In this document: in pieces, positions 186 to 4,926 of the stretch
How positions within the stretch are numbered: position 1 is the first letter of the stretch
Layout of the letters: the number at the start of each line of letters is the position of its first letter
DNA from: an uncultured Eubacteriales bacterium
GTDB lineage: Bacteria > Bacillota > Clostridia > Lachnospirales > Lachnospiraceae
Reading direction: 5' to 3'
Length of the DNA stretch: 44,415 bases
Assembly (NCBI GenBank): GCA_900314565.1
Contig: OMVU01000023.1
Location: forward strand, 1-44,415
The notes under the pieces: model-generated
What the model saw: only the letters and a program-made list of their open reading frames with translations
Databases searched by the model: none
Told to the model about the DNA's origin: nothing
Program-made: the position numbers and the translations under genes

Positions 186-1778
186 TCAGCTCTTTCTGTT
201 GAAAAGTGTGTTCAGTAGACCGCGCCCGAGGCTCGCACCCAGATTGCCGCCCAGCGTCTTGCCGAAGGTCCCGAACTTTCCGCCGAATGTCTTGCCGACC
301 TCGCGGCCGACTGTTCCGGCGACTGTCGAACCGACCTGCTTCGCTGCTTTAGCCGCCGCGGCATCTGCCTTGGCTTTCTCTCTGGCAGCAGCCGCCTCTG
401 CCTTTTCTTTTTCTTTAGCGGCGAGCGCGTCCGCCTTTTCTCTCTCCTTCGCCTCCAGCTCTGCCTGAGCCTGCTTTTCGAGTTCGATTTCCCGTCTCAG
501 GAGGAATTCATACGCAGAATCCGGATCTTCGGAGACCGCATACTTTGAATAGAGGATACTTCCCATCACGATGTCCTCTCTCTCCGAATCCGTGATCGAT
601 CCCATCCGGCTCTGCGGCGGAAGAATGCTGACCCTCTGCGCGGTCGAAGGAATTCCGCCCTCATTCAGGAAGGAGACGATCGCCTCGCCGGTCCCGAGTT
701 CCAGAATTGCGTCATAGGTCTTAAATGCGGGATTCTCGCGGAACGCCTGCGCCGCCGCTCTGACCGCCTTCTGCTCCGCCGGTGTGTATGCGTGGAGAGC
801 ATGCTGCACTTTATTTCCGAGCTGAGCGAGCACATTGTCCGGGATGTCCCGCGGATTCTGTGTGACGAAATAGACGCCGACACCCTTCGAGCGCACAAGC
901 TTCACGACCTGCTCGATCTTATCGATCAGGCCCTTTGAAGTTCCCTTGAAAAGAAGATGTGCTTCATCAAAGAAGAAGACCAGCTTCGGCTTCGAGAGGT
1001 CTCCGACCTCCGGAAGGGTCTCGAAGAGTTCGGACAGCATCCAGAGAAGGAATGTAGAATAGAGACGGCCGTTGTTGATCAGGCTCTGGCTGTCGAGTAT
1101 GCTGATCATTCCTTTGCCGCCCTCTCCCTGAGCGATCCAGTCTGTGATCTTGAGTGCCGGCTCGCCGAAGAAGACGTCCCCGCCCTCGGATTCAAGAGCG
1201 ACGACTGCCCTCAGGATGGCCCCGATGGAGTTCTTCGCGATGTTGCCGTACGCATCGGCGAATTCTCTGTTATTCTCACCGACATAATTCAGCATGGCCT
1301 TCAGATCCTTCGTATCAACGAGGAGGAGCTCGTTGTCATCCGCGATCTTGAATACGACGGACAGGAGATCTGTCTGAAGATTGTTGAGATCCAGAATTCT
1401 CGCGAGAAGGGACGGCCCCATCTCGGTAATCGTCGTGCGGAGCTGAATTCCGTTCTTCCCAAACAGATCATAGTAGGTCGCCGGATATCCCGTGTAGGAA
1501 AAGCCTGCGTCACCGAGACCGAATCTCGCGATGCGGGCATTCATGTCCTCGCTCTCTTTTCCGGGAAATGCCGTTCCTGCAAGGTCTCCCTTGACATCTG
1601 CCATAAAGACCGGCACACCCAGGTCGCTGAACGCTTCAGCCATGACCTTCAGAGTGATCGTCTTTCCGGTACCGGTCGCGCCTGCGATCAGTCCGTGACG
1701 GTTCGCCATGGAGGGAAGCAGATTCGCTCTCTCCCCCTCGTCTGTGAGTCCCATCCAAACTTTGCCTTCTGACAGCAT
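186..1778 (-). CDS. HerA-like DUF853 (YjgR-type) ATPase
   Basis: A 530-residue protein of the DUF853/YjgR group of HerA/FtsK-like P-loop ATPases. A Walker A motif GATGTGKT lies near residues 33-40, the Walker B stretch LVFFFDEAH near 265-273, and an arginine-rich region after VQHALHAYTP matches the later motifs of the family. About the first 400 residues form the ATPase. Residues 420-490 are an Ala/Lys/Glu-rich coiled coil, and the tail is Gly/Phe-rich (GKFGTFGKTLGGNLG). The family is widespread and poorly characterised; its relation to HerA suggests nucleic-acid or protein translocation, but the substrate is unknown. It is monocistronic, with its own terminator downstream. The ATG is preceded by GGAGGACTTAAA, so the start is well supported. 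Confidence 0.85.
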   Translation of the reverse strand: MLSEGKVWMGLTDEGERANLLPSMANRHGLIAGATGTGKTITLKVMAEAFSDLGVPVFMADVKGDLAGTAFPGKESEDMNARIARFGLGDAGFSYTGYPATYYDLFGKNGIQLRTTITEMGPSLLARILDLNNLQTDLLSVVFKIADDNELLLVDTKDLKAMLNYVGENNREFADAYGNIAKNSIGAILRAVVALESEGGDVFFGEPALKITDWIAQGEGGKGMISILDSQSLINNGRLYSTFLLWMLSELFETLPEVGDLSKPKLVFFFDEAHLLFKGTSKGLIDKIEQVVKLVRSKGVGVYFVTQNPRDIPDNVLAQLGNKVQHALHAYTPAEQKAVRAAAQAFRENPAFKTYDAILELGTGEAIVSFLNEGGIPSTAQRVSILPPQSRMGSITDSEREDIVMGSILYSKYAVSEDPDSAYEFLLRREIELEKQAQAELEAKEREKADALAAKEKEKAEAAAAREKAKADAAAAKAAKQVGSTVAGTVGREVGKTFGGKFGTFGKTLGGNLGASLGRGLLNTLFNRKS

Positions 1779-2019: not shown

Positions 2020-3933
2020 TCAGCCCAGCGGGATCTCGACCACCTTCGCCATCTTCGTCAGGCAGTCCTCGATCTGACCTGTGATCTCCTCCACCATCCG
2101 GTTGGAAATCTCCTCGTTCTTGACCTCCTCGAGCGATGACAGAAAATTCTCCCGGACATCCCTGCTGATGTCGTCAATATGATTTTCAAAATACTTCTTC
2201 GGGATCACTTTTCTCATCGGTTTCGGGATATCCGCACCCATGATCGCCGCCTGCATACGATTTTTCCCGAGCGCAAGGATCGCAAGGGACAGGACCGAGC
2301 CCGCCACGATCCCCGGCAGTCCGCTGGCGATCAGGGCAACCTCTGATCCGCCGCAGATAAGCCCGACCAGAAGGGAGATCACCGTATCGATCAGCCATGT
2401 CAGAGATTCAACGTTGAAGACATTTTTCGTATCCAGATGAATATCGATATCCGAAAGCGAAAGATAAGAACTCAGGCTCATGGACCGGTAGGGAATGCCG
2501 TGCCGGACACAGATCGGCATCGTGTAATCTTCGATCGCGTAGGATACCGGCTTCAGCCACTCCGCGACCGGCTTGATGAGGAGCTGCCTGGCTTCCTCGG
2601 TGTGCAGATAGTACTCGATTTCCTTCTGCATCTCCGCGTCGATATCCGAAAGCCTCTTGATTTCCCCTTCTCTCCAGCGCAGGATCACGGGCAGCGCCGC
2701 GTTCTTAAGGATCGGCTCTGTCAGCGAGTCGACCGCGCCCCGGTACAGGTCGCTGATCCGCTCCGAGACGATCCGTTCGATGATCGAGGAGTCGATCATG
2801 TTGTCGACTTCCCGCGAGAAGTCTTTCATTTCCTCATCGATCCGCCCGCAGTAGGCAAGCCCGCGCGCGATAGAGAATTCAGGCTGGATCTCCGAGATGA
2901 TGACCGCCTCCGGGTAGACTTCCCGGCACCAGTCGCTGATGCAGGCCATTCTGGATACGCCGCCGGTCATAAAGATCAGATCCGGCATATTTCCCTTGAT
3001 GCTCTTACGCGTCTCTCTGAGGCTGTCCACGAACACTTTATAAAAGGAAGACCCGAAAAGCTTTTTCATCTCCCCAAAGAGGATCCGGTCCGCGATTTCG
3101 GCATTCATGCGGAGCGTAAAGCGAATGACCTCATCATAGGCGATCGTGATCTCCTCGCGGCACTCATTGTCCTTCCAGTAGTCCTCGTCAGAAAAATACT
3201 TTTCCTTGAGCCTGCGGGCCGCGAACTCACAGTATGTGCGCCACGGTTCGCTCTCCGAAAAGACCCTGCGGATCTTCTTCTCGTCTTTTGAGGCTTTGAG
3301 GGACTCCTCAAGAACAGTCTCGTCCATGAGCCCGCCCCCCAGGAAGACCTCTCCGGCTGTCCGGAGCTCGACCTCCCGCCCCTTCTCTATGTAGGCAAGA
3401 TCTGTCGTCGAAGATCCGATGTCTACGACAAGCACGGGATGGGAAAGAATGTCATATCCGACCTGCAGATGGCGCGACTGGCAGGCCGCGACAAGCGCCG
3501 CTCTGGACTCGGAAATGATCTTCGTCGGCGGATACCCTGTCCGCTCAAAGATCCGTCTGTAGCGCTCCCGGGCTGCTCTGTCCCAGCCTGCAGGGCAGCC
3601 GACATAAAAGCTGCAGTCCTCATTCTGGATCAGATCTCCGGAGGCATACAGCTCTCCCAGCACGCCGCCCGCAAAGCTTTTGATATCCTTGTCCACCCCC
3701 GGATCGACCAGGTATCTGCTCTTGAATCGCAGATGGCGCTCGGATGTGTTCTGAGCGTAGCAGGCATTTTCACCGATGAGGATCCCCTCCCGGTCCATCG
3801 TCCGCGCATACGCTGTGATAAAGCTCTTTGCGTCGCACACCGTAAGCACCTCGGGCTTCGATGTCTTTTCCTTTCCGAGGACGGCGACGGCGCTCTCCGC
3901 ATCGCCGAGATCAAATCCGAAAAATCGCTCCAT
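2020..3933 (-). CDS. Membrane-associated Hsp70/DnaK-like ATPase
   Basis: A 637-residue protein with an actin-type ATPase fold. Phosphate-1 motif FGFDLGDAES is at residues 5-14, phosphate-2 VVDIGSSTTDLAY at 169-181, and the adenosine motif FMTGGVSRM at 321-329; VGCPAGW at 111-117 resembles the DnaK VPA(Y/W) segment. The usual DnaK substrate-binding beta domain is not recognisable. Residues 370-510 are helical and charged, and 514-556 are strongly hydrophobic with Gly/Ala, suggesting a membrane hairpin, then a charged tail. This is an Hsp70-superfamily protein, not housekeeping DnaK. A good ribosome site (GGAGGA, 8-10 nt) precedes the ATG. It lies downstream of a second membrane protein with a GrpE-like tail, suggesting a chaperone/exchange-factor pair at the membrane. 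The client is unknown. Confidence 0.75.
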   Translation of the reverse strand: MERFFGFDLGDAESAVAVLGKEKTSKPEVLTVCDAKSFITAYARTMDREGILIGENACYAQNTSERHLRFKSRYLVDPGVDKDIKSFAGGVLGELYASGDLIQNEDCSFYVGCPAGWDRAARERYRRIFERTGYPPTKIISESRAALVAACQSRHLQVGYDILSHPVLVVDIGSSTTDLAYIEKGREVELRTAGEVFLGGGLMDETVLEESLKASKDEKKIRRVFSESEPWRTYCEFAARRLKEKYFSDEDYWKDNECREEITIAYDEVIRFTLRMNAEIADRILFGEMKKLFGSSFYKVFVDSLRETRKSIKGNMPDLIFMTGGVSRMACISDWCREVYPEAVIISEIQPEFSIARGLAYCGRIDEEMKDFSREVDNMIDSSIIERIVSERISDLYRGAVDSLTEPILKNAALPVILRWREGEIKRLSDIDAEMQKEIEYYLHTEEARQLLIKPVAEWLKPVSYAIEDYTMPICVRHGIPYRSMSLSSYLSLSDIDIHLDTKNVFNVESLTWLIDTVISLLVGLICGGSEVALIASGLPGIVAGSVLSLAILALGKNRMQAAIMGADIPKPMRKVIPKKYFENHIDDISRDVRENFLSSLEEVKNEEISNRMVEEITGQIEDCLTKMAKVVEIPLG

Positions 3934-3965
3934 TTTTCAAATCTCCTCCACTTAATCTTCGTATC

Positions 3966-4060
3966 GGTCAGGGTCCCCCGAAGGGCAGCTGCAGTACAGT
4001 CCCCGGTCAGGGTCTCTCAAAGGGCAGCTGCAGTTCAGCCCCCGGACACGGTCTCCTCAG
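3966..4060. repeat. 39-bp tandem repeat between the GrpE-like and Hsp70-like genes
   Basis: Two complete 39-bp units (3966-4004 and 4005-4043) share GGTCAGGGTC and AAGGGCAGCTGCAGT; a degenerate third begins at 4044 (GGACACGGTC). The unit length is a multiple of three, but the array lies outside both genes. It includes a CAGCTG palindrome in each unit. Confidence 0.75.
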
Positions 4061-4074
4061 GGGACGGCTTCTGC

Positions 4075-4926
4075 TCACACTCCGGTCACAAGTCCCTTCG
4101 CAAGTACCTTCCCGTCCTTCACCAGAGCAGGTTTCAGCGTCGCCTCCTTCTTACCGGGCATGCGGCTGAACATTCTCCGGTTCTCCTCGGAATAGTCAAC
4201 CACCTCAATTCCCTTCCTGTGCAGATAATAGCGGACATCCGAGATGACTGTCTGCGACACACTCTCGCCGGGCGCTCCGTAGGCCGAGGTGAGGAGCCCG
4301 GATATGAGCTCCATCTCCTGACCCGGGAGAAGATTCCGGATATCAGTCTGCGATTCTGCAGTTTCCTCCTTCTGTACCTGCAGGCGTACAGCGGCATCGT
4401 CAAGATTTTTGTCCACGATCACAAGTGCATGGGACAGGTTCCGGTAAATTTTCTCATGATCCATGGTCACGTCGATGATCCGGTCAGTTTCAGGGGGCTT
4501 CGCATGCTTTTTCCCGGCACGCATGCCCGCAAGGAAGAGAATGACCGCACCTGCAGCCACCGCGATGAGCCCGACCGGCATAAGGATCGACGGGGAAAAT
4601 GCAAGCACTGCGGCTCCCCCCAGACACGCGCATGCGCCGCCCGCTGTCGGCAGGATCGGAAAATCCCCGTCTGAAGAACTGACAGCGTGCTCGTATGTCT
4701 TCACTTCCCCGATGCTGTCGATGAGCGGAACTGCGGCTCGAATTGCGGAAAGGGCATAGCCCGCCTCCTCGTTGATCTCCGGATCCTCCGAAGATTCGCC
4801 GTACATGAGCTGGATCCGCCTGAGCTCATCGTCGAGGACAGACCGGGCCTGCTCCACATTGTCCGCCTTCGAGAGGCGGTTCATAAGACGCTCTTTATCC
4901 TGCTCGAGGAGATCAGATGTTTTCAT
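4075..4926 (-). CDS. Two-TM membrane protein with GrpE-like C-terminal region
   Basis: A 283-residue protein. Residues 5-45 are a charged helix or coiled coil (LLEQDKERLMNRLSKAD). Residues 93-135 hold two hydrophobic segments with a short Ser-Pro turn, so both ends should be cytoplasmic. Residues 155-283 are soluble: a helix (LSHALVIVDKNLDDAAVRL), then MELISGLLTSAYG, then FSRMPGKKEATLKPALV and KVLAKGLV. The last part resembles the GrpE beta domain (cf. the LRPA.V.V segment), and the gene sits directly upstream of an Hsp70-like gene. I infer a membrane-tethered exchange factor or adaptor. The resemblance is weak and the gene could simply be an unknown family. AGGGGGAAG precedes the ATG. Confidence 0.55.
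   Translation of the reverse strand: MKTSDLLEQDKERLMNRLSKADNVEQARSVLDDELRRIQLMYGESSEDPEINEEAGYALSAIRAAVPLIDSIGEVKTYEHAVSSSDGDFPILPTAGGACACLGGAAVLAFSPSILMPVGLIAVAAGAVILFLAGMRAGKKHAKPPETDRIIDVTMDHEKIYRNLSHALVIVDKNLDDAAVRLQVQKEETAESQTDIRNLLPGQEMELISGLLTSAYGAPGESVSQTVISDVRYYLHRKGIEVVDYSEENRRMFSRMPGKKEATLKPALVKDGKVLAKGLVTGV

Follow-up and report, generated by a model that had tools for sequence, protein, structure and literature searches.

What could an Hsp70-type ATPase do if its peptide-binding domain were exchanged for helices that enter a membrane, and if its exchange factor were anchored in the same membrane? The question is raised by two neighboring genes in a 44,415-nucleotide stretch of DNA from an uncultured Eubacteriales bacterium of the Lachnospiraceae (contig OMVU01000023.1 of assembly GCA_900314565.1; "the window" below means this whole stretch). 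Open reading frame calling places both genes on the minus strand, co-directional, the first (4926-4075) encoding 283 residues and the second (3933-2020) encoding 637 residues. An earlier note, made from the letters alone, had described them as an Hsp70-like ATPase preceded by a membrane protein with a GrpE-like end, and this observation is confirmed. On balance, and with little assurance to spare, we think that the pair is probably a two-gene inner-membrane ATPase machine, in which an Hsp70 head would be the engine, a helical region the stalk bearing a membrane hairpin, a GrpE-fold protein the exchange partner, and the membrane or envelope the place of output.

Hsp70s are the textbook soluble, peptide-binding chaperones. 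Soluble Hsp70/GrpE pairs are already known; what would be new here is a predicted membrane-bound pair that keeps only the head and the exchange-factor fold. No description of such a pair was found in the literature searched, which took in no bioRxiv preprints and few papers behind a subscription.

An Hsp70 head without a peptide-binding domain

A scan of genomes of 84,980 species yielded 328 relatives of the Hsp70-like protein, and the locus and conservation counts given here rest on the best 80 of these. Once the partners at L129, L153, and L156 and the Hsp70-like sequence at L091 had been dropped, and with the window's own proteins counted in, conservation was measured over 76 partners and 80 Hsp70-like sequences; the sequence at L091, from a metagenome-assembled genome, has its reading frame in two pieces (L091:1889).

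The Hsp70-like gene (2020..3933, minus strand) begins with a nucleotide-binding head (residues 1-365; 2839..3933) to which the Pfam HSP70 match is confined (residues 113-366, E 3.6e-7), and structural alignment agrees with Pfam in identifying an actin-fold ATPase of the Hsp70 type. The same Pfam family is matched by 46 of 47 aligned members. Catalytic residues K71, E142, D171, and T176, matched to the DnaK of the source genome, are present in 80/80 sequences. The phosphate-1 loop, aligned to that same DnaK, reads GFDLGDAES (residues 6-14; 3892..3918) in place of GIDLGTTNS; all 79 sequences that cover the loop have GDAES and none has the DnaK-type GTTNS, making the former a family hallmark. Outside Pfam, the best NCBIfam match is PRK11678, for YegD-type Hsp70-like proteins, at a weak E 2.2e-7 and 30.1 bits, far under the cut-off of 331. 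The head further matches MreB and FtsA weakly. In a viral structure library the recognizable matches listed were Hsp70 or actin-type heads, with no apparent match to the C-terminal half among them.

Beyond the head, in line with the earlier note, no beta-sandwich peptide-binding domain follows: the Pfam match stops at profile position 375 of 599, and the structure model has no strand of three or more residues past residue 365. There is instead an all-helical region (residues 366-505; 2419..2838), the putative outgoing stalk, with helices predicted at 354-381, 384-421, 428-443, and 446-478. The hydrophobic segment noticed earlier corresponds to a predicted transmembrane hairpin (residues 508-555; 2269..2412), with two hydropathy peaks in 79/80 sequences and three in one, and with a motif, CGGSG...G..AG, whose first part reads CGGSE in the window protein. 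The model's confidence, given as pLDDT (predicted local distance difference test), is low at hairpin residues 528-552. Modeled helices then return toward the head (residues 557-631; 2041..2265).

This architecture bears directly on whether the pair is a classical membrane-bound chaperone, whose helical domain would bind unfolded or membrane proteins while the partner served as exchange factor. The head and the GrpE-fold partner are compatible with an Hsp70 cycle, and Clostridia also have soluble Hsp70-like and GrpE-like operons, one of them with a DnaJ/TPR protein (L219); we nevertheless judge this reading unlikely, given that the peptide-binding domain is absent from both profile and model, and that no neighbor recurs as a client, co-factor, or J protein (the commonest cluster occurs at 13 of 80 loci, in scattered positions, many loci being cut by contig ends). 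The earlier proposal of a dedicated membrane chaperone machine is supported in part. The source genome encodes its housekeeping DnaK and GrpE on another contig (C144), and the chaperone reading has neither a candidate client nor a peptide-binding domain to rest on.

A partner with a predicted membrane anchor and a GrpE-like fold

The partner gene (4075..4926, minus strand) encodes, by its structure model, an N-terminal helical domain (residues 1-64; 4735..4926) and the two-helix membrane segment already suspected, a predicted transmembrane hairpin (residues 91-141; 4504..4656) with helices at 91-110 and 113-141. Hydropathy gives two peaks there in 69/76 partners, one in 6/76, and three in 1/76. 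The remainder (residues 157-283; 4078..4458) has the GrpE layout in the model, a long helix, a bundle of two shorter helices, and a beta domain (residues 241-283; 4078..4206). Structural comparison with VIA aligns 126 residues of this region, beta domain included, to three GrpE entries (1dkg_A, 4ani_A, and 9a81_A).

The resemblance to GrpE survives at the level of fold, as seen by VIA, and fails at the level of the sequence profile. No family in Pfam or NCBIfam matches the partner above cut-off, hmmscan of the window partner with the GrpE profile PF01025 returned nothing, hhalign found no similarity between the partner family and GrpE alignments, and GrpE was not among the matches listed (25 of 103 families) for 58 partner relatives. 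Could the GrpE shape then be a helical-bundle coincidence, the partner being a membrane adaptor or oligomer scaffold and the Hsp70-like protein an actin-type membrane filament or signaling ATPase? Besides the lack of sequence similarity, the VIA Z against GrpE is middling, Foldseek by itself matched nothing at E below 0.001 (GrpE appeared only in the second look by VIA), the head has its weak MreB and FtsA matches, and the beta domain is shortened in a distant partner from Calothrix. Against these points, the same 126 residues are aligned by three GrpE entries with the beta domain included, and that domain is the best conserved part of the partner, with a mean column identity of 0.58 vs 0.35-0.52 elsewhere and with F253, P257, T263, P266, A267, and G278 present in 76/76 partners. 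We regard this reading as rather improbable, and prefer a partner that would act as an exchange factor.

Pairing and distribution

The two genes are separated in the window by 141 bases (3934..4074), within which GGAGGAG, resembling a ribosome-binding site, precedes the Hsp70-like start and no terminator-like site was found. In the survey of pairing proposed by the earlier note, the gene immediately upstream, in the same orientation, is that of the partner at 78 of the 80 loci (three of these partners, at L129, L153, and L156, run off the beginning of their contig), and at the other two the contig starts less than 70 bases from the Hsp70-like gene. Spacing among relatives runs from -23 to 279 bp. 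Within the genus, one or both genes occur in 28 of 42 genomes, many of them incomplete. Of 28 stretches inspected there, 24 have both, two (L081 and L082) have one gene at a contig end, and two (L084 and L085) have ordinary DnaK only. In 24/24 of the loci with both, the genes are adjacent in identical order; the interval between them is 1-144 bases, and where they overlap it is by no more than 23.

Farther out the distribution thins. Among 299 sampled genomes of the family, the partner has strong matches in eight other genera and weak ones in three more; a profile of the C-terminal half, run on 398 genomes of the phylum at E up to 0.01, found only the window's genome and one distant protein. 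The latter (G401; L247:3719-5728, minus strand) is Hsp70-headed, has a related C-terminal hairpin with the CGGSG motif and a canonical-type loop, and is flanked by no evident partner gene; in 118 surrounding genomes the C-terminal half gave no further match. Record titles of the relatives name Lachnospiraceae, Erysipelotrichaceae/Solobacterium, Oscillospiraceae, and other Clostridia, with many ruminant-gut labels (not counted).

A more remote copy occurs in Calothrix brevissima NIES-22, where a conjugative plasmid carries it. Its Hsp70-like protein is homologous along the full length (E 8e-67, with 28.4% identity over 99%) and is encoded just downstream of the gene for a 268-residue product (NIES22_68830/68840, both annotated as hypothetical). 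The partner used as query had no sequence match in plasmids, and the Calothrix partner was recognized by position; its N-terminal domain and its hairpin align with the partner family (hhalign E 1e-4, probability 57%). Gene order, the full-length Hsp70-like homologue, and this part of the partner are thus shared, whereas the loop (GHGET), the tail, and the shortened beta domain differ. The patterns of the relatives scan were unable to detect loops of the Calothrix type.

Such a patchy spread, together with a plasmid copy lying near integrases, invites the thought of a selfish or defense-related mobile unit, for example a toxin-antitoxin or anti-phage pair. Other evidence leaves this very improbable: neither protein matched in PADLOC at E up to 0.1, the partner had no match in phages (that collection was searched with the partner and not with the Hsp70-like protein), viral contigs held no relative of the Hsp70-like protein, and in a quick tree the 18 Erysipelotrichaceae-titled rows form a single clade, which suggests mostly vertical descent there. 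The Lachnospiraceae need seven changes on the same tree.

The C-terminal tail and a possible membrane switch

The last residues of the Hsp70-like protein (628-637; 2023..2052), of the form MAx[VI]VE[IV]PLG, are among its best conserved. The motif MAx[VI]VE[IV]PL lies at or near the C-terminal end of 78/80 sequences, the remaining two having IIEIPL and VVEIPI, and mean identity over residues 621-637 is 0.85, compared with 0.75 for the whole head and 0.84-0.88 for the head core (101-210). In 22 of the 50 best VIA structural rows, the last aligned model residue is 634-636 and stands opposite residues 389-390 of DnaK or the equivalent position in BiP, Ssb, and Sse1; we take this site to be the interdomain linker. 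Of the other rows, 20 are head-only chains that stop at model residues 363-373, and one (6sr6) stops at 484.

We propose, from where these alignments end and because in the ATP state the hydrophobic VLLL linker of Hsp70 is docked to the head (as stated in PMC5448104), that the tail is a relocated interdomain linker serving as a docking strand. Two observations weigh against it: seven longer chains among the 50 rows end at 367-374 with no meeting of tail and linker, and the local confidence of the tail in the model is low (pLDDT about 47).

In the machine that we favor, then, the Hsp70 head would be retained and its peptide-binding domain replaced by helices carrying a membrane hairpin, with the C-terminal tail folded back into the groove that holds the interdomain linker in Hsp70s. 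A tail placed in that groove would dock and undock as ATP is bound and hydrolyzed, and so move the helical membrane domain. We infer that the partner, anchored in the same membrane and presenting its GrpE-fold domain, would open the head for ADP to be replaced by ATP, and that the output may be the organizing or reshaping of the membrane or envelope in preference to protein folding. If this is true, the Hsp70 allosteric switch is able to drive work other than folding, and the small set of membrane machines in bacteria gains an ATP-based candidate.

Bacterial dynamin-like proteins have a nucleotide head, a helical stalk, a membrane-inserting tip, and a C-terminus that returns to the head. The sequence of elements in the model of the Hsp70-like protein fits this plan as an analogy of layout only; the protein differs in having an ATP-binding Hsp70 head and no GTPase domain. 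By this analogy one might picture ATP-driven membrane remodeling by an Hsp70 head on a dynamin-like plan, with the linker at the extreme C-terminus, tail docking that drives an embedded stalk, and a membrane-anchored GrpE-fold protein as recharger; we think so specific a picture doubtful. Actual kinship of the C-terminal half with dynamins was considered and rejected, as its profiles matched no solved dynamin. A Dynamin_N search gave three strong matches, the rest being mostly Era/Der-type GTPases in our reading of the pattern, and neither of the two strong matches inspected by eye was similar.

Its small size and strict linkage make the pair directly testable, as does one carrier (Erysipelotrichaceae bacterium NK3D112, L131) that appears to be an isolate, its record title having no label of a metagenome-assembled genome. 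This uncharacterized pair occurs in many bacteria of the rumen and on one plasmid of a cyanobacterium.

Relation to soluble Hsp70/GrpE systems and neighboring genes

With DnaK and GrpE the window pair shares the fold and catalytic residues of the ATPase head and a GrpE-fold partner encoded alongside. It differs in the DAES phosphate-1 loop, in having no peptide-binding domain, in a partner unrelated to GrpE by sequence profile, in the predicted membrane anchoring of both proteins, and in having its linker-like strand at the extreme C-terminal end and not immediately behind the head. The soluble Clostridia operons at L213 and L219 likewise combine a divergent Hsp70-like protein with a dedicated GrpE-like gene; unlike the window partner, their GrpE parts score above the Pfam cut-off, and those of their Hsp70-like loops that were read are GTTNS or GTTTFE.

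At L213 there are three Pfam HSP70 proteins (two bearing DUF5716_C and the other a VWA domain), a fourth Hsp70-like protein with a GTTNS loop, and a 644-residue protein ending in a divergent GrpE; it looks like an uncharacterized soluble multi-Hsp70 system, and L214, L216, L218, L221, and L223 resemble it in gene layout. The row at L219:5143-10388, consisting of GrpE-like, Hsp70-like, and 403-residue proteins and of one that combines DnaJ with TPR and has a hydrophobic segment at its C-terminus, is a compact dedicated Hsp70 triad.

Just downstream of the pair in the window lies a HerA_C-type ATPase gene (186-1778, minus strand); in a comparison of 29 stretches, only the two relatives nearest to the window share it. 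At another locus (L095:6199-11839) the genes that come after the unit, in the same orientation, encode a histidine kinase/response regulator, a NAGPA-domain protein, and a protein-kinase/TPR protein; these families were read in L095 alone, and a few of its relatives keep the same downstream row.
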